Assembly (NCBI GenBank): GCA_017518705.1
Contig: JAFWUC010000060.1
Span: 1-24,506 of the forward strand
Direction: 5' to 3'
DNA: 24,506 bases
Origin: Clostridia bacterium
Lineage (GTDB): Bacteria; Bacillota_A; Clostridia; Christensenellales; Aristaeellaceae
The position numbers were made by a program, and so were the translations under genes. The notes under the pieces were generated by a model. That model ran no database searches and was not told the DNA's origin. It was given only the letters and a program-made list of their open reading frames with translations. The number at the start of each line of letters is the position of its first letter. Within the stretch, counting starts at the first letter, position 1. This document shows positions 2,974 to 14,966 of the stretch, one piece after another.

Positions 2974-3004
2974 AAAAACGCCCGAAATCTCAATGATTTC
3001 GGGC
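2974..3004 (-). terminator. Intrinsic terminator of tRNA-Lys supplied by the element
   Basis: The stem GCCCGAAATC pairs with GATTTCGGGC (2980-2989 and 2995-3004) around a 5-base loop. On the minus strand it is followed by GTTTTTTATC, a good U-tract. It lies 7 bp past the tRNA-Lys 3' end and would stop the tRNA transcript before the integrase gene. Confidence 0.85.
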
Positions 3005-3011
3005 CATGCAA

Positions 3012-3054
3012 TACACCTTCAGGGACTCGAACCCTGGACACCCTGATTAAGAGT
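3012..3054 (-). repeat. Right attachment site within tRNA-Lys
   Basis: The second copy of the 43-bp perfect direct repeat, running from the anticodon stem-loop to the discriminator base of the intact tRNA. Insertion restored a complete tRNA here and left the old 3' half at 603-645. Confidence 0.9.
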
Positions 3055-3084
3055 CAGGTGCTCTACCAACTGAGCTAAAGGTGC
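3012..3084 (-). tRNA. tRNA-Lys (anticodon CTT)
   Basis: A 73-nt cloverleaf on the minus strand. The acceptor strands GCACCTT and AAGGTGT pair, with a first G-U. The D stem is GCTC/GAGC, the anticodon stem CCTGA/TCAGG with loop CTCTTAA (anticodon CTT, reading Lys AAG), and the T stem CAGGG/CCCTG with loop TTCGAGT. The discriminator is A. CCA is not encoded; the next bases are TTG. The 3' 43 nt double as the right attachment site of the element. Confidence 0.97.
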
Positions 3085-3103
3085 TCGTCAACGAACAGAA
3101 AAT

Positions 3104-3132
3104 ATTATATTACGCCGTGGCGTTTCTGTCAA
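3104..3132 (-). promoter_or_regulatory. Consensus promoter of tRNA-Lys
   Basis: On the minus strand, a perfect TTGACA (3132-3127) and a perfect TATAAT (3109-3104) with a 17-bp spacer, about 20 bp upstream of the tRNA 5' end. The spacer contains a short palindrome, ACGCC-GT-GGCGT (3112-3123). A full consensus promoter fits a highly expressed stable RNA. Confidence 0.85.
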
Positions 3133-3183
3133 TAGGTCAAATTGTTAATTATGGGAAAAAGTCGGACGCCCGTGTCAGCAAGC

Positions 3184-3212
3184 TTGTAATTCGGGGAAAC
3201 ATACTGTATAAT
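3184..3212 (+). promoter_or_regulatory. Promoter of the 3244-12209 gene run
   Basis: -35 TTGTAA (3184-3189), a 17-bp spacer and -10 TATAAT (3207-3212), ending 31 bp before the TTG start at 3244. It diverges from the tRNA-Lys promoter. No comparably good promoter was noticed before 12209, so this one may drive the whole run. Confidence 0.75.
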
Positions 3213-3243
3213 AAAATAGGAAATATATCTCGGAGGAAAAGAA

Positions 3244-4596
3244 TTGACCTGTCCAAGATGTGACGCGACGATCAAAGCTTCAATGCGCAGGTGCCCAAAG
3301 TGCGGCCTGCCGCTGAGCTATGCTGATAAAGTAGAAAACCGGGACCGGCTGCCGCTTAGTAGTGTGTTCATAAGGGCGGGGCTGGTGCTTGCGGCCATAT
3401 TGATCACGTTGGTAGTGATACAGCTGATAGAGGAACCCATCAGGATCCGCAGGCAGAACAGGGAGATCACCAGAAGGTACGTTAATCAGGTGGTGGAGAC
3501 CCTGACGCTGGACAGCGGCTACAAGGCGCACGCCCTGACGTTCTTCGGTGAGGACGGAGACTGCGTGTATCTTGAGGAGCTGGGCCAAAGCTACATGTTC
3601 GTGGGCGGGATCGCCCGCGTGGAAGTGCCGGACTATATCTGGTTCGACAAGGATCCCACGCTGATCGACAACGCGCTTATCACGTTTTCGCCCGTGTACA
3701 TATCCGCCTCGGGCCAGAAGACCCGCATTCCCGTGTTCTCGGTAGAGGTGGAGGTGCCCGAAGCGCCTGTGACCATAACCCAGCCCGCCCGGGACAACGT
3801 TACGGTCATAACCTCGCAGACGGGCCTCAGCATGAACGTGATATACGGCAGCCAGGTCATAATCAACGGCGAGGACGTATCTAGCAAAGTCACCCGCGAC
3901 GGCAAGCTGGACCTGACGCTGAACATAGAGCCCATAGGCGACAACAACGTGTCCATAATCGTGCGCACGGACAACCACAAGGAAGCCCGGCGCGACCTGG
4001 TGTTCTACAGGGAGGAGATGGACATAGAGCTGGAGGTAGCCACCAGCGTAAGCTTCATAAGCCGCCTCAACTACATGACCATCACCGGCAAGACCGAACC
4101 GGGCGCCTGGATAACGGTGGACACGAACCATGACGCGGACAGCCTTAAGATCAACCAGCAGACGGGCGTGTTCTCATTCAGGGCCCGATTCTCGGCTTAC
4201 GGACAGAACCTGGTGTCCTTCCACGCCTCCATGGCGGACAGGAAGGACTCCGCTATCTCCTTCTACGTGGATTACCTGCCGGCAAAGGGCGAATACACCC
4301 GCAACGCCTGTCAGATGGACTACGCCCAGCTGCGCCTGCTGTACGAGCAGTGGCACGGCCGCGTGTTCCTGTGCATCGGCAAGATCGTTGACACGATCAC
4401 TTCGGGCGACAAGACGCTGAGCATCATGAATGTGGGCAACAGCGAAAACGTGAAGCTGGTCGCTCTGGAGAACCAGTCCAACCAGGGGCGCTTCCTCCAG
4501 GGAGAGGAATACGCCCTGTACTCCGACGTGGCGGGCCGTGTGTTCTACGGAGACACGTACATTCCGTACCTGATAGCCCGCTACACCAAGGATTAG
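3244..4596 (+). CDS. Zinc-ribbon, single-pass membrane protein with Ig-like extracytoplasmic region
   Basis: A 450-residue protein of unknown function. It opens with a small zinc ribbon (CPRC at 3-6 and CPKC at 17-20). A basic, polar stretch follows, then one hydrophobic segment (about 41-62, VFIRAGLVLAAILITLVVIQL), which suggests a cytoplasmic zinc ribbon and a large outside domain. The outer part is rich in beta-strand patterns. Two successive Ig-like segments are suggested, the second by ITGKTEPGAWITVD, a pattern common in bacterial Ig-like repeats. The last about 90 residues alternate in a way that suggests a small beta-barrel, but this is only an impression. The start is TTG with GGAGG eight bases upstream (3232-3236), directly before the Cys motif. 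It leads the gene run and is followed 9 bp later by another exported protein. Confidence 0.85.
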   Translation: MTCPRCDATIKASMRRCPKCGLPLSYADKVENRDRLPLSSVFIRAGLVLAAILITLVVIQLIEEPIRIRRQNREITRRYVNQVVETLTLDSGYKAHALTFFGEDGDCVYLEELGQSYMFVGGIARVEVPDYIWFDKDPTLIDNALITFSPVYISASGQKTRIPVFSVEVEVPEAPVTITQPARDNVTVITSQTGLSMNVIYGSQVIINGEDVSSKVTRDGKLDLTLNIEPIGDNNVSIIVRTDNHKEARRDLVFYREEMDIELEVATSVSFISRLNYMTITGKTEPGAWITVDTNHDADSLKINQQTGVFSFRARFSAYGQNLVSFHASMADRKDSAISFYVDYLPAKGEYTRNACQMDYAQLRLLYEQWHGRVFLCIGKIVDTITSGDKTLSIMNVGNSENVKLVALENQSNQGRFLQGEEYALYSDVAGRVFYGDTYIPYLIARYTKD

Positions 4597-4605
4597 GAGG
4601 CAGGC

Positions 4606-5475
4606 ATGAAAAAACTCGCTCTCGTGCTGGCGTTAATGATGTGCTTTTCCGTTTTGGCGATAGAGGAAGCGTTCGACGGCTCGGTGTATTCCGCCTACAA
4701 GGCGGTGCTTGCCCCGGGCACGCTGGACGGCTGGGATGAGGTGAGCTACATCGAGCCGTCCGGCCTGCTGCTGAGCGCGTACAAAGCCAACGCCGAGCTT
4801 ACAATAAGCCTGGAGGAAAGCGACGAAACGCCGCAGGCGGCACTGGAACGGCACGTAAACGGCGTTGTCCGCTACGGCACCATCCAGCAGAAAAGCCAGG
4901 TGAGCCCCATCACCGCGGGACACTTTACCAACGGCGCCTACGTGAGTTATTCCTACCGCTCAAAGCGCGACACGGGCAGCGGCGACGTGTATTACGTGGA
5001 CATGGTGGGCGCGATGCTGAGCGGAGGACGGATGCTCATGCTCACCGAGACCCGCTGGGGCAAGGACGCGGGGGAGAGCGTGCTTTTGGGCCGCATTCTG
5101 CCCGCATTCAGCCTGGAAACGCGGGAGATATCCACCGAGTATAAGGCATTCCTGAAGTCCGCGGAAGAGAAAAGTGACGGCATATACGTCACCATAGACT
5201 ACTGCGACATGGAGTACGGCGGAGAGTTCGGCGTGGTGTTCGCCAACAACGACGATCCTACGGAATACACCTGCCGCCTGAGCCGGGACTGCGAGATCTG
5301 GCTGGGTCAGCAGGTCGGCGGACTGTACGCCATAAAGCAGATAACGCCCGACGCGGCGGAGATATCCATAGCGATAGAAAGCTATTACAATCAGAACCTG
5401 GTGGAACCCATATATACGGTACTGTTCAACCGGGCGGGCGAGATCGTCCGGCTGATGCACTATAACGCCCTGTAA
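4606..5475 (+). CDS. Exported protein of unknown function
   Basis: A 289-residue protein beginning with a classical signal peptide: MKK, a hydrophobic core LALVLALMMCFSVLA and a likely cleavage just after it. No lipobox or membrane anchor is seen, so secretion or weak wall association is likely. The mature part is mixed alpha/beta with no motif I recognise. The start ATG has GGAGG six bases upstream. It sits 9 bp after the zinc-ribbon membrane protein and 15 bp before lepA, in one apparent operon. The conserved neighbour lepA gives little hint about its role. It may be lineage-specific. Confidence 0.85.
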   Translation: MKKLALVLALMMCFSVLAIEEAFDGSVYSAYKAVLAPGTLDGWDEVSYIEPSGLLLSAYKANAELTISLEESDETPQAALERHVNGVVRYGTIQQKSQVSPITAGHFTNGAYVSYSYRSKRDTGSGDVYYVDMVGAMLSGGRMLMLTETRWGKDAGESVLLGRILPAFSLETREISTEYKAFLKSAEEKSDGIYVTIDYCDMEYGGEFGVVFANNDDPTEYTCRLSRDCEIWLGQQVGGLYAIKQITPDAAEISIAIESYYNQNLVEPIYTVLFNRAGEIVRLMHYNAL

Positions 5476-5490
5476 ACGGAGGACAAAGGC

Positions 5491-7296
5491 TTGACGGAGC
5501 TCAATCACATCCGAAATTTCTGCATAATCGCCCATATCGACCACGGCAAGAGCACCCTGGCGGACCGTCTGCTGGAAAAGACCGGCGTGATGGCCGCCCG
5601 TGATATGACCAGCCAGGTGCTGGACAGCATGGAGCTGGAAAGGGAGAGGGGCATAACCATCAAGTCCAAGGCAGTCAGGATGCCGTACACCGCCAAAGAC
5701 GGCAAGGTCTACGAGCTTAACCTGATCGACACTCCCGGCCACGTGGACTTCACTTACGAAGTGAGCCGCGCGCTGGCGGCGTGCGAGGGCGCCATACTGG
5801 TGGTGGATGCCACCCAGGGCATAGAGGCGCAGACACTGGCCAACGTGTACCTGGCGCTGGATCACGATCTGGAGATACTGCCGGTCATAAACAAGATAGA
5901 CCTGCCCAGCGCCCAGCCCGAGGTGGTCAGAAAGGAGATAGAGGACGAGATAGGCCTCGACGCCGAGGACTGTCCGCTCATCAGCGCCAAGATGGGCATA
6001 GGCATAGACGAGGTACTGGAAAAGGTGGTGGAGGTCATTCCGCCCCCCAAAGCCGATGCGTCCAAACCTCTGAAAGCCCTGATATTCGACAGCTATTACG
6101 ATAACTACCGCGGCGCGATAAGCTCCGTAAGGCTGATGGAAGGCAGCGTCCGCGTGGGGGACAGGATCCGCATGATGGCCTGCGGCAAGGAGTTTGACGT
6201 TACCGAGTGCGGCGCGTTCCTGCCGGGCGGCTACCTGCCTAGGGGGGAACTCAACGCGGGAGACGTGGGCTACATCGCCGCCTCCATAAAGGACATAGCG
6301 GATATCCGCGTGGGCGACACCATAACCACCGCCGAAAACCCTGCCGACAGCCCCCTGCCCGGATACAAGCCCGTGCAGCCCATGGTGTTCTGCGGAATAT
6401 ATCCCGCCGACGGCGCGGATTATGAGAGCCTTAAGGACGCCCTGGAACGCTTAAGGCTCAACGACGCGTCCCTGAGCTTCGAGCCGGAGACCAGTGTGGC
6501 GCTGGGATACGGCTTCCGCTGCGGCTTCCTTGGGCTTCTGCACATGGAGATCATCCAGCAGCGGCTGGAAAGGGAGTTCGACCTGGACCTGGTCACCACC
6601 GCGCCAAGCGTCATATACCACGTCGTCAAGACGGACGGGACCATGGTGAGCATAGACAATCCCACCAACCTGCCGCCCATCAACGAGATACAGTACATGG
6701 AAGAGCCCTTCGTGGATGCCCGGGTGATCACGCCCGCGGACTACACAGGCGCCATAATGGAACTGTGCCAGAAAAAGCGGGGCACCTTCAAGGACATGAA
6801 GTATATAGACGGCGGCAGGGTGAGCCTGACGTACGATCTGCCGCTCAACGAAGTCATATACGACTTTTTCGACACGCTCAAAAGCCGCACCCGCGGCTAT
6901 GCCAGTTTTGACTATGAACTTAAAGGCTACGTGGAGAGCGACCTGGTGAAGCTGGATTTGCTGCTTAACGGCGAAGCCTGCGACGCGCTGAGCATAATCG
7001 TTCACCGCGACAGGGCGTACGCGAGAGGGCGCTCCATAGCCGAAAAACTCAAGGACGCCATTCCGCGCCAGCTGTTCGAGATCCCCATCCAGGCGGCCAT
7101 AGGCGGCAAGATAATCGCCAGGGAGACGGTGAAGGCGCTCAGGAAAGACGTGCTCGCCAAGTGCTACGGCGGCGACATCACCCGCAAAAAGAAGCTGCTT
7201 GAAAAGCAGAAGGAAGGCAAAAAGCGCATGCGCCAGGTGGGCAGCGTGGAGGTGCCTTCCGAGGCGTTCATGGCAGTGCTCAAAATGGATACATGA
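5491..7296 (+). CDS. lepA: Elongation factor 4 (LepA), ribosome-associated GTPase
   Basis: This translational GTPase acts on stalled or mispositioned ribosomes and aids ribosome biogenesis. At 601 residues it has the normal length. The G1 motif is AHIDHGKS (14-21), the G3 motif DTPGH (80-84) and the G4 motif NKID (134-137). The switch region around RERGITIKS and the family C-terminal end, rich in Lys and Arg with [10 protein letters not shown] as the last residues, are also typical. The start is TTG at 5491, preceded by CGGAGGACAAAGGC; no ATG lies close by in frame, and the N-terminus [20 protein letters not shown] fits the family exactly. Its stop overlaps the hemW start (ATGA), implying translational coupling. 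The lepA-hemW order is common in Bacillota. Confidence 0.98.
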
Positions 7297-8426
7297 CCTC
7301 GCTCTACGTTCATATACCCTTCTGCGTGCGCAAGTGCGCATACTGCGATTTCGAGAGCTATGCCGGACGGCTGGACAGGGCTGACGCATACATCTGCCGG
7401 GTGCTGGAGGAAGCGGAAAAAAGGCGCGCGGAATACGGGGCATTTTCCTGCCTAAGCGTGTATCTGGGCGGTGGCACGCCCTCGCTTTTGACCCCGGAGC
7501 AGCTTGGCAGGCTGTGCGGGGAGCTGTTTGACATGTTCCCGCCGGAAAAAGACGCGGAGGTCACGCTGGAAGCCAATCCCGGTACGGTTACGCCGGAACT
7601 TTTTGCCGCCGCGGTGCGTCTTGGGTTCAACCGGCTTTCCCTGGGAGTGCAGGCGAAGCAGGAAAGGCTGCTTAAGCTGCTGGGCAGGGTACATACTTTT
7701 CCCGAGGCGCTCCGCGCCGTTGAGATGGCGCGGGAGGCAGGCATACGCAACATCAACTGCGACGTTATGTGCTGCCTGCCGACGCAGATGGAAGAAGAGC
7801 TCAACGAGACGCTAAGCAGTGTGGCGGATGCGGGGGCGGAGCACATATCGTGCTACAGCCTGATACTCGAGGAAGGCACACGGCTGCACAGGCAGGTGGA
7901 AAGCGGCGAACTGTCCCTGCCTAACGAGGAAGCGCAGCGCAGGCAGCTTAAAAGCGCGTCTGCGACTCTGAAAAGCAGGGGTTTTGAGCGATACGAGATA
8001 TCGAATTACGCCCGGAAGGGCTGCGAGTCCCGCCACAACATGGTGTACTGGGAACGGGGAGACTACCTGGGGCTGGGATGCGCGGCGCATTCCTTCATGC
8101 GGGGCGAGCGTTTTGGCAACCCGGGCTTCGACAGGTATTTGGCGGGAGAGGACGGCCTTGATCGGGAAGCGGTCAGCAGGGCTTCCGCGCTGGAAGAAGA
8201 GATACTTCTGGGCACCCGGCTCGTAAAAGGTATAAATCTTGAGCGCATACGGGTCGAGTACGGGGCGCAGGCCGCCGATAAACTGCTCGGACGCGCCGAA
8301 AAACTAAAAGGGCTCGTGCTTATCGAAGACGGGCGGCTGAAACTTACGGACGAAGGTTTCTTCGTCCACAACGCTGTGGTGCTGGAACTCGCGGCGGCCG
8401 TGCAGGGCGCCGTGCCGGACATATAA
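7293..8426 (+). CDS. hemW: Radical SAM heme chaperone HemW
   Basis: A 377-residue radical SAM protein of the HemN-like family. The 4Fe-4S/SAM motif CVRKCAYC (Cys11, Cys15, Cys18) follows the family's LYVHIPF lead, and the glycine-rich SAM motif GGGTPS is at 59-64. Length, the compact N-terminus and the position right behind lepA all favour HemW (heme binding and delivery) over the oxygen-independent coproporphyrinogen oxidase HemN. Relatives are often annotated as the latter. The start overlaps the lepA stop by the ATGA arrangement. In many Bacillota this gene is followed by hrcA-grpE-dnaK; here it is followed by a secreted RNase gene. Confidence 0.95.
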
Positions 8427-8436
8427 GGAGGAACGA

Positions 8437-8982
8437 ATGAGGAAGATACTTTATCTCGCGCTTGCGCTGCTGCTGGCGCTTTCCTGCCTGGGGGAAAACA
8501 TTTCCGCCGACAACTGGGTGCAGCCGGAGGTCATCTGCGAAGACGGCGTGGCGCTGGCGGAGATCCCGGCCGGTCTCTCTTTCGAGATCTTAATGGTCGA
8601 ACTGGGTGAGGATTACTATCTCTGGCCGGAGGTGGCGCTTTATCTGCATGCGTTCTGCCAACTGCCGGAAAACTATATCACAAAAAACGACGCCATGGAC
8701 CTGGGCTGGGATTCCCGCGCGGGCAATTTGTGGGTGGTCGCGCCGGGCATGGTGATCGGCGGAGACAGGTTCGGGAACTATGAACGCCAGCTGCCCGCCG
8801 CGAAAGGCAGGAAGTATTACGAGTGCGACGTGGACTATGAGGGAGGCTACCGGGACAACGGCAGGCGCATAGTGTTCTCCAGCGACGGGCTCATCTACCT
8901 TACTTTTGACCACTACGACACTTTTACCCTGTTATATGACGGCTGGTACGAAGCGGACGCAAAGTACGTGCCGGCAAATTAG
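8437..8982 (+). CDS. Secreted barnase-type ribonuclease
   Basis: This 181-residue protein belongs to the microbial N1/T1 (barnase) RNase family, which cleaves single-stranded RNA, usually 3' of guanosine. A signal peptide (MRKILYLALALLLALS) and an about 45-residue pre-domain precede the RNase domain at about 65-167. Alignment by eye to Bacillus barnase is strong: LPENYITK, GNLWVVAPG, IGGDRFGN, RRIVFSSDGLIYLTFDHYDTF. The catalytic set is kept: Lys83 (barnase Lys27), Arg125 (Arg69), Glu129 (Glu73), Arg139 (Arg83), Arg143 (Arg87) and His159 (His102). A C-terminal tail of about 14 residues extends beyond barnase. An AAGGAGG site precedes the ATG. A barstar-like gene follows after 8 bp, as expected for a toxin and its inhibitor. 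SCLG in the signal region is a poor lipobox, so secretion is favoured over lipid anchoring. Confidence 0.93.
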   Translation: MRKILYLALALLLALSCLGENISADNWVQPEVICEDGVALAEIPAGLSFEILMVELGEDYYLWPEVALYLHAFCQLPENYITKNDAMDLGWDSRAGNLWVVAPGMVIGGDRFGNYERQLPAAKGRKYYECDVDYEGGYRDNGRRIVFSSDGLIYLTFDHYDTFTLLYDGWYEADAKYVPAN

Positions 8983-8990
8983 GAGGCAGT

Positions 8991-9263
8991 ATGTACATAA
9001 TCGACGGAAGCAAAATGGCCACCCGGAAGGATGCCTGGGACGAGATCAAAAGGGGCATCGACGCCCCCGCATATATGGGCAGCAACCTTGACGCGTTAAA
9101 CGACATACTGGGGGAGACCAGGGGAGATATCCTGCTGACCCATGCGTGCGTGATGCTCAACAGCCTGGGCAGATACGGCTGCCGCATACTCGAGGTGTTT
9201 TTTGCGGCTGCGAAAGCCAACAAATACCTTTCTTTCTCGGTAGGTCACAAGCCTGAGGAATAA
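8991..9263 (+). CDS. Barstar-family ribonuclease inhibitor
   Basis: A 90-residue cytoplasmic protein the size of barstar (89-90). It starts with the family's IDG strand and contains the binding-helix signature PAYMGSNLDALNDIL (26-40). By alignment to barstar, Tyr28, Asp34 and Asp38 match Tyr29, Asp35 and Asp39, which fill the barnase active site. Trp38 is replaced by Asn37, and the position of Glu76 appears to be Ala72 within ILEVFFAAAK. The gene begins 8 bp after the barnase-type RNase stop and has a GGAGG site. It most likely protects the producing cell from its own RNase before export. It is followed 2 bp later by the MATE transporter gene. Confidence 0.92.
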   Translation: MYIIDGSKMATRKDAWDEIKRGIDAPAYMGSNLDALNDILGETRGDILLTHACVMLNSLGRYGCRILEVFFAAAKANKYLSFSVGHKPEE

Positions 9264-9265
9264 CA

Positions 9266-10654
9266 GTGCTGGCGCAGGACAGAAAACGCTATCTTAAGCT
9301 CATCGCCCACCTGGCATGGCCGACCATACTGGAGCAGACGCTGTCCACACTGGTAAGCTACGTGGACACCGCGATGGTGGGGCGCCTGGGCACCCAAGCC
9401 ACCGCCGCCGTAGGCTGCACCATGACCGTAAACTGGATGCTGGGCAGCGTGGTGATGGCGCTGGGCATAGGCTTCCTGGCCTATATAGCCCGGAGCATGG
9501 GCGCGGGCAAACAGGAGCAGGCGAGAAAAGCTTCCGCCCAGTCGGTCACGGTGGCAGTGAGCCTTGGGCTCATAATGACCGCGGTCGTGCTGCCTTTGGC
9601 AAACAGGGTGCCCGTCTGGATGCGCGCGGATAAGAATATACAGCAAAAGGCAGGCGAATACCTGTTCATTTTGTATATGCCGATGGTATTCCGTTCCGCT
9701 TCGATAATGTTCGGCACGGTATTGAGGGCTTCGGGCGACACCCGCACGCCCATGCGGGTGAACACGGGCGTGAACGTGATTAACGTGGTGCTCAATTTCC
9801 TTCTGATCTACAGGACCAGGGAGCTCACGCTGCTGGGACTGAAGTTCACCTGCCCCGGCGCGGACCTTGGCGTTACTGGCGCGGCGATCGCAAGCGCGAT
9901 CGCGTTCACTGTGGGCGGCATCTGGATGACCGTATGCCTGTACAAAAGTCCGGTCGTATCTCCGAAAGGTCACAGTTACAGGCCGGATAAGGCGATACTC
10001 GGCCCCTGCTTCAGGGTGGCACTGCCCAGCTGTCTGCAGAGGCTGGCGACCAGCAGCGGATACGTGGTGTTTTCCAGCATGATAAACTCCATAAACCAGG
10101 TGTCGACCGCTGCCCACACCATAGCCAACACCGCGGAAAGCGCGTTCTATATCCCCGGCTGGGGCATGCAGACCGCGGCCAGCACTCTGATAGGCAACGC
10201 TTACGGTGAGGGCGACAGGGAAAAGCTCAAGGCGCTGTCACGCCTGCTGCTGATAATCGAGTTTATCGTGATGACGGTGAGCGGGACGATACTGTTCCTG
10301 GGCGCGGAAGGGCTGATAGGCCTGTTCAACCGGGACGAAGAAGTGATCTCGCTGGGAGCAAAGGTGCTGAAGATGGTGGCGATCTCGGAGCCCATCTACG
10401 GTATCGCCATAATCATCGAGGGCATATTCAACGGCATAGGAGACACTTTCCACTCTTTCCTGTTCAATGTGACGGGCATGTGGGGGATAAGGATACTGGG
10501 CACTTACATATTCGTGTCCCTCATGGGCGGAGACCTGACCGCCGCCTGGGGCTGCATGATCGCCCACAACGTGTGCCTGGGCATAATGCTGAGCATAAAA
10601 TATCTTCGGGGCAGATGGAGACCCGGAACAAATGCCGAGACAAATGCGTCTTAA
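9266..10654 (+). CDS. MATE-family efflux transporter
   Basis: A 462-residue polytopic membrane protein with about 12 hydrophobic segments in two similar halves, the normal MATE size. Family-type sequences include WPTILEQTLSTLVSYVDTAMVGRLG in the first helix, GTVLRASGDTRTPM after helix 5, and the second-half counterparts GWGMQTAASTLIGNAYGEGD and IFNGIGDTFHSFLFN. Such carriers expel cationic drugs or metabolites using Na+ or H+ gradients; the substrate cannot be told from sequence. The start is GTG at 9266 with GAGG upstream inside the barstar 3' end, two bases after the barstar stop, suggesting coupled translation. Confidence 0.93.
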   Translation: MLAQDRKRYLKLIAHLAWPTILEQTLSTLVSYVDTAMVGRLGTQATAAVGCTMTVNWMLGSVVMALGIGFLAYIARSMGAGKQEQARKASAQSVTVAVSLGLIMTAVVLPLANRVPVWMRADKNIQQKAGEYLFILYMPMVFRSASIMFGTVLRASGDTRTPMRVNTGVNVINVVLNFLLIYRTRELTLLGLKFTCPGADLGVTGAAIASAIAFTVGGIWMTVCLYKSPVVSPKGHSYRPDKAILGPCFRVALPSCLQRLATSSGYVVFSSMINSINQVSTAAHTIANTAESAFYIPGWGMQTAASTLIGNAYGEGDREKLKALSRLLLIIEFIVMTVSGTILFLGAEGLIGLFNRDEEVISLGAKVLKMVAISEPIYGIAIIIEGIFNGIGDTFHSFLFNVTGMWGIRILGTYIFVSLMGGDLTAAWGCMIAHNVCLGIMLSIKYLRGRWRPGTNAETNAS

Positions 10655-10697
10655 CAAAGTCGGCACTGCGATTAAATGACACTTTAGGAGGCAATAC

Positions 10698-12209
10698 ATG
10701 AAAAAACTTATAAGCATGCTGGTCGTGCTGTGTCTGTGCCTTTCTGCCGTAGCTTTTGCGGACGGCGCCATGGGCGACCTTTACGACAAGGTGGTGCATC
10801 TGGCGTTTGACACCACCAACGTGACCCTGACCGCCGAGGCGGAGTTCAAATTCGACGGGGAATGGTTCAAGACCATGCACGCGTCATATAAGCAGGACGG
10901 CTTCCGTTCCTACTTAAGCTACATGCTTGACAGCCCCACTCTGGAGGACAGCGTGTATACGGGCGGCTATACCGTGTTCGGAGAGGGAAACGTCGCTTAT
11001 TCCAACGACACTTACCTGGGCAATTACTACTATGAGAACCCCACCAAACTCAGCGACAGGGTGCTGGTGCGCACTCCCAAGACGGACATGCTGCTAGGGC
11101 TGGGCAAGCTGCTCGCGCTGGACGCCGAAGATTACGTGACCCAGGACGTTAGCGAGAAAGCCTACACCTTCAAGGCGGGCGCGCTGGACGAAGTGATCAA
11201 CCGCAGCGCGTATTACCTGATAATGGACTACATACGCGACAATTACTACATGGACCTGTTCCACGAGTGGGACTACAGCGCCAGCGGCGAAAAGTACACC
11301 TATGTGTACTATGAGGACCATCAGGAGCTGGCGGCTCAGAAATTCCTGCAGATCTACGGCGAGGAGTTCCCGGTGGATGCGGCTTATGACGAACTGGACG
11401 AGACCACGCTGGGCAGATACGACGTGGTGCTCAGAATGCTGGACCAGATGGAAAACGAGATCCGCAAGGCGTACGGCGGAAAAGTGGTGTACGTCAAGAA
11501 CGACGGCACCGCCCAGGTGTTCGATTCCTTTGAGGAATACGCCGTGGAGGCGGGGATCGTCGAAGTGGATTATGTAAACTACCTGTCTTCGCTCAAGCGC
11601 TTCTATTCCGACAAGTACGGCGAGGAACTCACCGACGAGACCATTAGCATCATCTCCTTCACCGCTTCCGAGGAACTCTGGATGGCGTATCTGGAGCTGG
11701 GCGAAGCGATGGATGAGTATTATATCCAGCTCGCCAGGAGCGAGGATCCCAAGGCGATCTACGCCGTGGTGCGCGAAGACGGCACGCTCAAAACCTATCA
11801 GATCAGGAGGGGCAAGACGCTGACCGTGACCCAGGAGGTCATGGCAAACATCAGCTACGCGTCCCTGGCTTCTCTGGATTCCAAGGTGATTCTTGACGAC
11901 GCGGGCAACCTGAGCGTATTTGAAGGCACCGCCGAGATCAGCGTAGAGTACACCGACGGCAGCAAACATACCCTCGAGATCGCCTTTACGCTCGGAGCGA
12001 AGGATTACGGTTCCACCAAAGTGCCCGAGACCTTCGTGCCTGAAGAGTACGGTCTGGTAAGCTATGAGGAGTACGTGGCGAGCCTGGAAAGCGAGAGCGG
12101 CGAGGAAGGCCCGAGCATTGAAGAGTTCCTGGCCAACGCGCCCAAGACCATAAGCTTTATGGGCAAGACCTTTGAGACCGAAGTAGATTATTACGGCGGC
12201 GAAGGCTGA
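10698..12209 (+). CDS. Large exported protein of unknown function
   Basis: A 503-residue protein with a clear signal peptide (MKKLISMLVVLCLCLSAVAFA, cleavage probably after AFA). The mature chain is acidic and very rich in Tyr, Asp and Glu. It shows no Cys-based or catalytic motif I recognise and no C-terminal anchor or sorting signal. The middle (about 180-330) looks helical and the last third looks like beta-sandwich (ISVEYTDGSKHTLEIAFTLG). The start ATG has GGAGG seven bases upstream. It is the last gene before the strong terminator at 12233. The 43-bp gap after the MATE gene contains no obvious promoter, so co-transcription is likely. The signal sequence resembles that of the 289-residue exported protein, but the mature parts do not look related. 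Confidence 0.85.
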   Translation: MKKLISMLVVLCLCLSAVAFADGAMGDLYDKVVHLAFDTTNVTLTAEAEFKFDGEWFKTMHASYKQDGFRSYLSYMLDSPTLEDSVYTGGYTVFGEGNVAYSNDTYLGNYYYENPTKLSDRVLVRTPKTDMLLGLGKLLALDAEDYVTQDVSEKAYTFKAGALDEVINRSAYYLIMDYIRDNYYMDLFHEWDYSASGEKYTYVYYEDHQELAAQKFLQIYGEEFPVDAAYDELDETTLGRYDVVLRMLDQMENEIRKAYGGKVVYVKNDGTAQVFDSFEEYAVEAGIVEVDYVNYLSSLKRFYSDKYGEELTDETISIISFTASEELWMAYLELGEAMDEYYIQLARSEDPKAIYAVVREDGTLKTYQIRRGKTLTVTQEVMANISYASLASLDSKVILDDAGNLSVFEGTAEISVEYTDGSKHTLEIAFTLGAKDYGSTKVPETFVPEEYGLVSYEEYVASLESESGEEGPSIEEFLANAPKTISFMGKTFETEVDYYGGEG

Positions 12210-12232
12210 TAAACAAAACACGGACATAAAAG

Positions 12233-12270
12233 CCGTGCGCGGTCAAACTGACCGCGCACGGTGTTTTTTT
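12233..12270. terminator. Bidirectional intrinsic terminator
   Basis: A perfect 13-bp GC-rich stem (12233-12245 with 12249-12261, core GTGCGCGGTCA) with a 3-base loop is followed on the plus strand by TGTTTTTTTAT. On the minus strand a shorter CTTTTATG tail follows. It ends the 3244-12209 run and probably also the convergent minus-strand gene whose stop is at 12283. Confidence 0.92.
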
Positions 12271-12282
12271 ATACGGGTCGAC

Positions 12283-13323
12283 CTAATCTCCGCTCGGCAG
12301 GAACACCAGGTTGGCGATGTCGTGCCCTTTCACTTCAAACGGATCGACAGACAGGGACAGGTGCACGCCCCTGTCGATCGTGGAATCAAACACTTTCTCC
12401 ATATCGTTCAGGTGCGGCTGCGACATGTTTATGCCCTTTAAGCCGTCCAGAGCGGCCAGCTGGTCTATAAAATGATCGCCCTTGCCGCAGAAGTGGACTA
12501 TGCCGCCGTATTCTTTGAGCAGCCTGCCGTCGTAGGGAGCGATGTATTCCCTGAAGAACTTGGGAGAAAGGTTCATGGCGCTGTCGTCTCTGAGCACCAG
12601 GCTGCCGCCTTCCACATACCTGAAATAGTTGCTGCGCCCGCGGTTTTCCGGGAAGAGTTCCAGCCAGCCTTCTATCTGGAGCTTGATGTAGGCGGCAAGC
12701 TTGTTCTGCAGGGCATGTATTTCGTCCGGCAGGTCGTAGAGGGCATAGAACAGTTCGCTGCCCCACAGCAGCTCCAGATTATCCATGGGACCCTGCAGGT
12801 CGGGCTGCTCAACATGCACGTATTTACCGATTTTGGGATATGTGTCGGCGATCTCCCTGAACAGCCTGCCAACGCGGTAAATGTCCCTGAAATTGCCCGC
12901 CTGCAGATCCGGAAGGGGCTGGTCGATCAGCTCGATGCACTTTTCCTCGCCCAGCTTTATCACGTTGGGCAGGGTATTGCTTTCTCGGGGCATTACGAAT
13001 AGCGGCGCTCCGAAAGCGGAGGCTACGTTGCCAACGCCGTAATTGCATCTTACGCGCAGGGGGAAGCTGCCGTCCCGGCTGAGACGCTGATTGACGCGGC
13101 AAAACTCGCTGAGCAGCATTTTCTCGTCGTCCGCTATGGCGTCGTTTATGTTGACCGCCGGCCAGTAAAGACCGGAAGGCGCGGCTTTTCTGCCCCGGGG
13201 CCTGTCCCCGCTGCCCGCTTCGTGGCGGCTCCAGGCGGACAGATACGCCTGTATCTCGTCCTCCGCGCGCTCGTCTATGCGGCTTTCTATGTCATCCAGA
13301 TATTTTTTGATGAGATCGGTCAT
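12283..13323 (-). CDS. URO-D superfamily protein (uroporphyrinogen decarboxylase / MtaA-like fold)
   Basis: A 346-residue protein related to the uroporphyrinogen decarboxylase superfamily, which also contains corrinoid-dependent methyltransferases such as MtaA. The pattern GGIVHFCGKGDHFIDQLA near the C-terminus gives His277-x-Cys279, the kind of His/Cys zinc ligand pair used by the methyltransferase branch. The typical linker MNLSPKFFREYIAPY (about 250-264) precedes it. The N-terminal Arg-rich substrate loop of true HemE is not apparent, so heme synthesis is unlikely. The ATG overlaps the stop of the upstream radical SAM gene (ATGA), so the two proteins are probably made together and act together. 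The substrate is unknown. No corrinoid-binding protein is seen nearby. Confidence 0.82.
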   Translation of the reverse strand: MTDLIKKYLDDIESRIDERAEDEIQAYLSAWSRHEAGSGDRPRGRKAAPSGLYWPAVNINDAIADDEKMLLSEFCRVNQRLSRDGSFPLRVRCNYGVGNVASAFGAPLFVMPRESNTLPNVIKLGEEKCIELIDQPLPDLQAGNFRDIYRVGRLFREIADTYPKIGKYVHVEQPDLQGPMDNLELLWGSELFYALYDLPDEIHALQNKLAAYIKLQIEGWLELFPENRGRSNYFRYVEGGSLVLRDDSAMNLSPKFFREYIAPYDGRLLKEYGGIVHFCGKGDHFIDQLAALDGLKGINMSQPHLNDMEKVFDSTIDRGVHLSLSVDPFEVKGHDIANLVFLPSGD

Positions 13324-14447
13324 ATGACGATATCCTCCGGATTGTAGCCTTTTGGCAGGGGCTCTTCGCTTAAAAAGGGCAGGCTTTCGTCTTCCAGCGC
13401 GGGCAGCAGCGCTTCAAAAGGTATGCCGTCAAACTCGCTGCCGTAGGTGGAACGCCCGAACCAGCCGCCTTCCTTGGCGCACTGGTTGAGGTCGCGGGCG
13501 AACTTGGTGCGGTTGGAACAGTCGTGCACCAATACTGGCCAGCCCTCCTGTGCGGCGTCTTTCATGAGCCTTAAGCTGAGCTCACGGCTGAAAACGGGGG
13601 AGAGGTAGCCATGCCGGTACATATACATGCTTTCGCCCAGGTAATTCTGAACGTTGTTGGGATTCAGATGCAGTTCCGCCAGGTTTATGAAATCCGGCCC
13701 CGCGTCCAGCACGGCGGCTTTCTTTTTTGCGAAGGCGGCGTAGAATTCTCGGGTCATGGGCGTTTCGATGCCTACCATGGGTATGTACTTTTTCGCCGCG
13801 CGGATGTTGTTTATGACCCTGTCGGAGCACAGGCTTGCGCCCAGGTTGATGCGCAGCTCGTTAAGCCCCGCGTCGCCCAGCGCTTTAAGCTGATCTTCGG
13901 TGGCGTGGATGCCGTTGGTATACAGGTGCTGATACACGCCCGCCTTGGCGAGGCGCGAGATCATGGAGTAGTATTTTTCTATCTCCATGAACGGCTCCAG
14001 GTACACGTACGCGACTCCGCTGGGCTTATTTCCGGCGGACAGGAGCAGATCGATGTCTTCCTCGCGGAATTTGGTGCCGCCGATCTCCCACATTCCCTCA
14101 CCGATGGGCGGGATCTCGTCCAGCACGCCGTAATCGTAACAGAAGGGGCAGGCGGCGTCGCACTTGTTGGTCTTGCGTATGGCGCCCAGCCCCGTTCCGC
14201 ACAGACAGCTCACGCAGCCCTTGGGGAAACGGGAAAAATCGCCCACGTATTTTGTGCGTCCGTTCAGGCTTTTAAGCCCCGGAATCTCGCTTTCCAGCTG
14301 CGAAAACCTGTGTTCCACGGCGCTTTCAAGCTGAAACAGTCCGCTGTATGCGATCTCCGTCTGCCGGGGAGAAAGCTCTTCCCCCTGCTGCTGGAGCTCG
14401 GCAAAAAACCTGAACCATATAAGTGCATCCCGCTTGGAAATCAGCAT
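13320..14447 (-). CDS. Radical SAM protein of unknown function
   Basis: A 375-residue protein with the radical SAM cluster motif CDAACPFC (Cys96, Cys100, Cys103). Just before it lies a second cysteine group, CVSCLC (Cys78, Cys81, Cys83), and further cysteines occur near the C-terminus (VHDCSN and LNQC), possibly for an auxiliary cluster. The central part (YVYLEPFMEIEKYY, LYTNGIHATEDQL, LRINLGAS) has the beta-alpha pattern of the radical SAM barrel. I chose the ATG at 14447-14445 because GGAGG sits seven bases upstream; the open frame extends 32 codons further without a usable site. No cobalamin-binding motif is visible. The gene is coupled by an ATGA overlap to the URO-D-like gene. The pathway is unknown. 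Confidence 0.85.
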   Translation of the reverse strand: MLISKRDALIWFRFFAELQQQGEELSPRQTEIAYSGLFQLESAVEHRFSQLESEIPGLKSLNGRTKYVGDFSRFPKGCVSCLCGTGLGAIRKTNKCDAACPFCYDYGVLDEIPPIGEGMWEIGGTKFREEDIDLLLSAGNKPSGVAYVYLEPFMEIEKYYSMISRLAKAGVYQHLYTNGIHATEDQLKALGDAGLNELRINLGASLCSDRVINNIRAAKKYIPMVGIETPMTREFYAAFAKKKAAVLDAGPDFINLAELHLNPNNVQNYLGESMYMYRHGYLSPVFSRELSLRLMKDAAQEGWPVLVHDCSNRTKFARDLNQCAKEGGWFGRSTYGSEFDGIPFEALLPALEDESLPFLSEEPLPKGYNPEDIVI

Positions 14448-14537
14448 AACACCACCTCCCGAATATAATAAATCATAATTGTGACGATACGGTTTAGAAA
14501 GTATGAAGGATTGGATGCCGCCCGCACAAATATGCTC

Positions 14538-14566
14538 TTGCAATAATCGGAGAAATGGGATATAAT
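14538..14566 (+). promoter_or_regulatory. Promoter of rsfS
   Basis: -35 TTGCAA (14538-14543), a 17-bp spacer and -10 TATAAT (14561-14566), about 35 bp before the rsfS ATG. The radical SAM gene diverges from this region, but its own promoter is not clear by eye. Confidence 0.75.
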
Positions 14567-14600
14567 AAACCTGCGAACACTGTTTGAACGGAGGGGTTTT

Positions 14601-14966
14601 ATGTACGAACCCAAAGATTTGGCGCTAGAGATCGCCCAAGTGCTGGACAGCAAAAAGGCGGAGAACATAACTATACTCAAGGTGGATCAGCTTACCAGCA
14701 TAACGGATTATTTCGTGATCTGCTCCGGCCGCAGCGCCCAGGCGGTACACACGCTTTATGAAGAAGTGTCCGACCGCATGGCTGAAAAAGGCATCGCTTT
14801 CAGGAGAAACGACGGCGTAAGGGAGAGCCGGTGGATCGTGCTGGACTACTCCAGCGTGATCGTGCACATTTTCCACCCGGAAGAAAGGGAGCACTACAAC
14901 ATCGAACGCCTGTGGGCGGACGGCACCAACCAGGTGGAGTTCGTCCCCGAAAAGCCGGGAAACTGA
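14601..14966 (+). CDS. rsfS: Ribosomal silencing factor RsfS (Iojap family)
   Basis: A 121-residue protein that binds ribosomal protein uL14 on the 50S subunit and blocks subunit joining in starvation or stationary phase. The family pattern is plain: KAENITILKVDQLTSITDYFVICSGRSAQAVHT at about 18-50, then GVRESRWIVLDYSSVIVHIFHPEEREHYNIERLWAD at about 74-110. Length is normal. The ATG has GGAGG nine bases upstream and its own promoter. It usually sits next to nadD and yqeK in Bacillota; here it stands alone between a divergent radical SAM gene and a terminator. Confidence 0.97.
   Translation: MYEPKDLALEIAQVLDSKKAENITILKVDQLTSITDYFVICSGRSAQAVHTLYEEVSDRMAEKGIAFRRNDGVRESRWIVLDYSSVIVHIFHPEEREHYNIERLWADGTNQVEFVPEKPGN

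Follow-up and report, generated by a model that had tools for sequence, protein, structure and literature searches.

Introduction

The ribonuclease barnase of Bacillus amyloliquefaciens and its inhibitor barstar are the standard model of tight protein binding, and the value of the pair analysed here lies there. In barnase, Glu73 is the catalytic base and His102 the catalytic acid, and Trp38 of barstar lies by Arg59. A published table of interface contacts pairs barnase Arg59 with barstar Asp35 and Glu76 and assigns barstar residues 29, 42 and 44 to other barnase residues; Trp38 is mentioned, in the same excerpt, as clashing with Glu60 during binding (PMC4207830). Balifase of Bacillus licheniformis lies, according to an extract of its description, in an operon with the barstar orthologue YrdF (PMC5021464), in disagreement with an excerpt of a later paper, which has B. 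licheniformis lacking barstar (PMC8837141). An excerpt of Zhang et al. 2012 describes two-gene barnase–barstar pairs, toxin first and immunity gene second, as widely distributed (PMC3482391). At the level of titles and abstract openings, we found nothing on tandem barnases, natural barnase–barstar covariation or barstar–QueA fusions, and a literature search combining barnase, barstar and Clostridia as whole words found nothing.

Natural pairs that keep or lose Arg59, with accompanying changes in the inhibitor, make sequence-based prediction of binding and of pair discrimination testable. Here we describe such a pair, and a conserved MATE transporter neighbour that offers a lead to the purpose of these RNases.

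Results

The window, that is, the whole stretch analysed, covers 24,506 nt of a Clostridia bacterium (Aristaeellaceae; assembly GCA_017518705.1, contig JAFWUC010000060.1, positions 1 to 24,506 of the forward strand). We confirmed the two ORFs singled out by the initial annotation, 8 bp apart on the same strand, and placed them among the following features:

3184..3212, + strand: promoter-like site TTGTAA-17-TATAAT from a simple promoter scan, likely operon start
3244..4596, + strand: 450-residue protein with a zinc-ribbon-like N-terminus and a hydrophobic segment, by eye
4606..5475, + strand: 289-residue protein, signal-like N-terminus by eye
5491..7296, + strand: lepA (elongation factor 4), named from sequence in the initial annotation
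7293..8426, + strand: hemW-type radical SAM protein, Pfam Radical_SAM and HemN_C above cut-off
8437..8982, + strand: barnase-type RNase, 181 residues (Pfam, PDB sequence match, predicted fold)
8983..8990, + strand: 8-bp gap between RNase and inhibitor genes, read directly (TAGGAGGCAGTATG)
8991..9263, + strand: barstar-type inhibitor, 90 residues (Pfam, predicted fold)
9266..10654, + strand: MATE transporter, Pfam MatE 191.9 bits, beginning 2 bp after the inhibitor gene
10698..12209, + strand: 503-residue protein, signal-like N-terminus by eye, final gene of the conserved block
12232..12262, + strand: terminator-like hairpin of 14 pairs with a T run, likely operon end; terminator-like on the - strand too

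LepA was matched in 11 of 13 genomes at 66-76% identity over nearly its full length. The zinc-ribbon matches of the 450-residue protein are below the curated Pfam cut-offs, and the 289-residue protein has no Pfam match up to E 0.1. The lepA and hemW genes overlap by 4 bp, the RNase gene begins 10 bp past hemW, and the RNase and inhibitor ORFs are each preceded by a GGAGG-type ribosome-binding site, that of the inhibitor overlapping the final base of the RNase stop codon (TAGGAGGCAGTATG). Our scan for promoters and terminators was a simple one, with + strand promoters considered from 3000 to 14700; it returned the sites at 3184-3212 and 14538 in that interval and no others. Since promoter-like sites were no more frequent than expected by chance (6 found, 5.8 expected), the case for 3184-3212 rests on its position. 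Terminator-like sites exceeded expectation (21 found, 9.9 expected); 12232-12262 has the longest stem, and shorter ones fall within genes. Enclosure of the eight genes (3244-12209) between these promoter-like and terminator-like sites suggests one operon, in which the RNase and inhibitor genes would be co-transcribed with the others.

Beyond the hairpin, two overlapping ORFs lie on the minus strand, one (12283-13323) with a weak, below-cut-off match to uroporphyrinogen decarboxylase, the other (13320-14543) encoding 407 residues with a CxxxCxxC motif seen by eye; the two also neighbour each other next to the operon in L161 and next to the 503-residue gene in L171. At the other end of the window, minus-strand genes at 849-2901 encode a WYL-domain protein and a tyrosine recombinase next to a GAPDH-like ORF (by eye); these may belong to a mobile element or to what is left of one.

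The initial annotation had called the 181-residue protein a barnase-type RNase, and profile, catalytic residues and predicted fold agree. It belongs to Pfam PF00545 (Ribonuclease; E 2.8e-15, 57.1 bits against a curated cut-off of 24), and barnase chains in the PDB match its residues 65-165 (best E 3.4e-29). Its AlphaFold2 model (mean pLDDT 92.4) has barnase as the best Foldseek match, with an rmsd of 1.1 Å, a TM-score of 0.95 by target length and 49% identity. A hydrophobic N-terminus is followed by a leader of about 35 residues and a catalytic domain at about residues 60-167. Where a signal peptide had been claimed, this N-terminus looks signal-like by eye and forms a helix at residues 2-15 of the model; the RNase is probably exported through it. 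Lys83, Glu129, Arg139, Arg144 and His159 correspond to barnase Lys27, Glu73, Arg83, Arg87 and His102, in columns invariant in all 113 RNase–barstar pairs that we aligned, and superposition on barnase together with the alignment would place them close together in space. Of the active-site residues listed earlier, Lys83, Glu129, Arg139 and His159 stand, and Arg143 gives way to Arg144 as the counterpart of Arg87. The statement that every alignable active-site residue is kept left out position 59, which is Tyr115 here and Arg in barnase. We did not count this position as family-defining; across the 113 pairs it is often a residue other than Arg, in relatives that keep the full catalytic set. The protein is predicted, from sequence and model, to be a barnase-type, guanyl-preferring RNase.

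Among 120 RNase homologues listed (of 1,072), 48 contain two barnase domains (P0003, P0005-P0049, P0064 and P0070). In 47 of these, the catalytic His102 is retained by exactly one domain. Its partner domain carries Gly, Ala, Arg, Asn, Lys or Ser at that site, almost always alongside conserved Glu73, Arg83 and Arg87. P0064 has a first domain truncated at the His102 site. Position 59 is mostly Tyr in the His-bearing domain and mostly Arg in the other. Perhaps such a second domain binds RNA or barstar but does not cleave.

The 90-residue product of the downstream gene, annotated as a barstar homologue, belongs to PF01337 (Barstar; E 2.3e-11, 43.9 bits against a curated cut-off of 23.4). Solved barstars match it weakly in sequence (best E 0.008), and its model (mean pLDDT 85.9) has a barstar as the best Foldseek match (TM about 0.8, 21% identity). 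Its N-terminus is not signal-like. Asp34 and Asp38 align with barstar Asp35 and Asp39; Asn stands at barstar position 38 (Trp in barstar), Val at 73 and Ala at 76 (Glu in barstar). We did not count Trp38 and Glu76 as family-defining. With an enzyme lacking Arg59 and an inhibitor lacking Trp38 and Glu76, tight binding cannot be taken for granted. In NCBIfam the RNase had no match and the inhibitor had one, at chance level. As far as the checks proposed with the initial annotation were run, both proteins match their profiles and the two models match the barnase and barstar folds, in which the catalytic residues of the RNase would cluster.

Barstar domains also form the N-terminus of other enzymes encoded downstream of barnase-type genes. 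These include the queuosine enzyme QueA (L005, 3457-4764, 2.2 kb from the RNase; L017, 5288-6586), a PALP protein (L040, 6462-8156), a radical SAM protein (L020, 6432-8594) and a NUDIX protein (L056, 6433-7236). Barstar ORFs similar in size to the fusions are found in L019, L024 and L073.

We then estimated selection on the pair with NG86. The dN/dS of the RNase was 0.115 against L161 and 0.108 against L162, and that of the inhibitor 0.106 and 0.100, close to those of hemW (0.140 and 0.148); with a dS of 0.89-1.27 for the pair, these figures are rough. Both genes are under purifying selection, which argues against a fast arms race.

These data bear on two readings of the RNase as a toxin, which were ranked low given the missing delivery domain or DNA-binding match, the signal-like N-terminus and the gene order. 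We know of no route by which freely released barnase-type enzymes enter other bacteria, and this weighs against a competition weapon, in which the secreted RNase would kill neighbouring cells and barstar would be the immunity gene, a simple form of polymorphic toxin–immunity pair. Further, Pfam searches up to E 0.1 matched the RNase to nothing besides PF00545, leaving its toxin domain with no attached domain for trafficking or delivery, and a dN/dS of about 0.1 is not diversifying. A weapon is thus improbable, even though the toxin gene comes first with an adjacent immunity gene, an arrangement described as perhaps an incipient TI gene order in the excerpt of Zhang et al. 2012 (PMC3482391), and a MATE transporter comes next. 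Still less can be said for a stress-linked toxin–antitoxin module acting inside the cell, which we regard as very improbable: an RNase with an adjoining inhibitor gene would suit it, but the RNase N-terminus is signal-like, the toxin gene precedes the inhibitor gene, and the Pfam search matched the 90-residue inhibitor to Barstar alone and to no DNA-binding family. Among the roles suggested by the initial annotation, stress-linked self-killing fits badly and RNA breakdown fits best.

To place the pair among its relatives, we considered the best 80 of 566 RNase loci from a search of genome contigs, using an iterated barstar profile and taking as adjacent a same-strand barstar ORF that starts at most 80 bp ahead of the RNase stop and at most 600 bp past it. 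By this definition barstar is close downstream in 63 of these best 80 loci and not in the other 17. Among the 17, the sequence of L001 and L008 stops shortly past the RNase, L033 is left out only because its barstar ORF, as called, has a 130-bp overlap, and L005 and L080 carry a barstar at a distance of more than 2 kb. A window-type barstar profile was matched in 55 of 396 genomes of the order of G001, and the window's own barstar in 137 of 300 genomes of the family of G400. The search of related genomes thus recovers the conserved pair, but the adjacency, presented at first as notable, is ordinary and already published.

What is more particular to the window's lineage is a block of four genes. 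In the six nearest relatives, chosen by barstar identity (84, 79, 76, 65, 57 and 57%), the RNase–barstar pair is kept throughout, and so is the order RNase, barstar, MATE and 503-residue protein, although the contig of L162 stops within the last gene. Barstar and MATE genes are at most about 10 bp apart or overlap in all six. Upstream, lepA-hemW is present only in the two nearest, L161 and L162, and the remaining four show four different contexts, making five in all. The pair had been located inside the lepA-hemW operon; it does share their predicted operon, but it lies downstream of both genes, which are uninterrupted, and we rejected it as part of lepA-hemW proper given the other upstream genes in four of the six. 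L163 and L164 have identical promoter hexamers, TTGACC-17-TAAAAT, just 5' of the RNase. The L163 copy overlaps the 5' end of the RNase ORF as called, in which a likelier start (Met-Lys-Lys) is found further in. A second promoter-like site in L163 falls between the RNase and barstar genes, and the promoter scan found none in L166. We infer that, in the window's lineage, the block had a promoter of its own before it came to form the end of a lepA operon.

The conserved block raises the question of whether its products cooperate, for example with the MATE moving a small molecule tied to RNA breakdown. The block is kept despite differing upstream genes, with the barstar and MATE genes so close in every case and the hexamers shared by L163 and L164. 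Set against this, L166 has no promoter-like site, the second site in L163 separates RNase from barstar, and this MATE is unmatched in the retrieved flanks of all of the best 80 of 566 RNase loci. Moreover, 20 loci were fetched with the gene of the 503-residue protein, and in 14 the fetched stretch lacks a MATE; the six with a MATE beside the gene are all in the six nearest relatives. Co-inheritance inside one clade is also possible without shared function. We therefore consider a functional unit of four genes rather unlikely, while noting that it would be compatible with the explanation that we prefer below. The 503-residue family is wide (96 of 300 genomes), has no Pfam match over cut-off and occurs in tandem copies in some genomes (relatives in G530, G516 and G570).

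The second feature of the pair concerns its interface. In the 113 distinct neighbouring RNase–barstar pairs, aligned from the loci obtained, barstar Asp39 is invariant and Asp35 is present in 112. Barnase position 59, in contrast, is Tyr in 79, Arg in 26, Phe in 4, Asn in 3 and Met in 1; barstar 38 is Trp in only 12, and barstar 76 is Glu in 17 and Asp in 74. Leaving out the 4 pairs with Asn or Met at position 59, Trp38 is present in 10 of 26 pairs with Arg59 and in 1 of 83 with Tyr59 or Phe59. The reverse holds when barstar 38 is His, Asn or Ser (1 of 26 versus 48 of 83), and an acid at 76 is found in 26 of 26 versus 64 of 83. The trend at 38 persists among 45 barstars less than 45% mutually identical (Trp38 in 4 of 8 with Arg59, 0 of 35 with Tyr or Phe).

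Corrected mutual information over 7,560 inter-protein column pairs ranked position 59 with barstar 73, 76 and 38 as 1, 3 and 4, and for each of these three barstar positions it was the top-scoring barnase column. Position 59 ranked 5695, 837 and 6380 with barstar 29, 42 and 44, and 6693 with barstar 80. The method is noisy: the pair at rank 2 (window RNase residue 65 and barstar 10) is not a contact known to us, and other pairs in the top 20 include signal or leader residues. Covariation of position 59 with barstar 73, 76 and 38 nevertheless supports contact between the inhibitor and the neighbouring RNase, and so favours their partnership.

The signal is partly shared descent. Within the window's clade, Arg59 goes with Asp76 in 3 of 3 (L127-L129), and Tyr59 with Ala, Ala, Arg and Asp in the window, L125, L126 and L130; position 38 is not cleanly separated there, L127 combining Arg59 with Asn38. 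A phylogeny-aware test had to use a weak tree, in which 37 of 110 inner branches are well supported and the bootstrap had not settled. On this tree position 59 must have changed 12 times; well supported branches force at least 3 of these changes and allow 3 independent pairs, too few for significance. Averaged over these, the expected direction was seen in 1.1 of 3 for an aromatic residue at 38 and 0.9 of 3 for an acid at 76, and the opposite in 0.0 for both.

We tentatively propose, with somewhat more doubt than confidence, that the barnase–barstar interface has been rewired naturally, in a series of forms, across Clostridia and related Bacillota: position 59 would have switched between Arg and Tyr repeatedly, inhibitor positions 38, 73 and 76 would have changed alongside, and pairs would discriminate their partners; in the window's clade, the pair would travel within a relocating four-gene unit with a MATE, which would have become, in the window's lineage, the tail of a housekeeping lepA operon.

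Discussion

The pair probably consists of a guanyl-preferring RNase that breaks down RNA outside the cell and a cytosolic inhibitor that serves as a safeguard. Our data show gene structure, profile membership, predicted folds, active-site conservation, purifying selection, neighbourhood in relatives and interface covariation, and we infer export, activity, binding, co-transcription and a nutritional role. The RNase would be synthesised with a signal peptide and exported, and would then cleave RNA outside the cell by the barnase mechanism, with Glu129 and His159 in the places of Glu73 and His102. The downstream barstar, remaining in the cytosol, would plug the active site of unexported RNase mainly through Asp34 and Asp38. 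Both proteins would be translated from one mRNA, on which ribosomes bind for the inhibitor at the stop codon of the RNase, and this arrangement may keep the two in step. The likeliest use would be degradation of external RNA for phosphate and nucleobases; against this nutritional role, a steady supply from the lepA operon is ill-suited to a phosphate-starvation enzyme.

The locus can be compared with three described systems. Like the pairs of Zhang et al. 2012, it has two genes in the order toxin, then immunity; the excerpt of that work mentions neither a MATE neighbour nor the Arg59 site (PMC3482391). Balifase–YrdF is likewise, in the extract of its description, a secreted barnase-type RNase sharing an operon with a barstar orthologue, but its neighbour genes are different and balifase is induced by phosphate starvation (PMC5021464).

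Barnase and barstar of B. amyloliquefaciens resemble the window's proteins in the fold of the enzyme (rmsd 1.1 Å, 49% identity) and all five catalytic-site residues compared, and in the fold of the inhibitor (TM about 0.8) with Asp35 and Asp39. They differ in that the window genes are adjacent, and in that Tyr replaces Arg59 in the enzyme and Asn and Ala replace Trp38 and Glu76 in the inhibitor. The pair is real and ordinary, and the points of interest are its conserved block with a MATE transporter and the two-sided change of a known interface.
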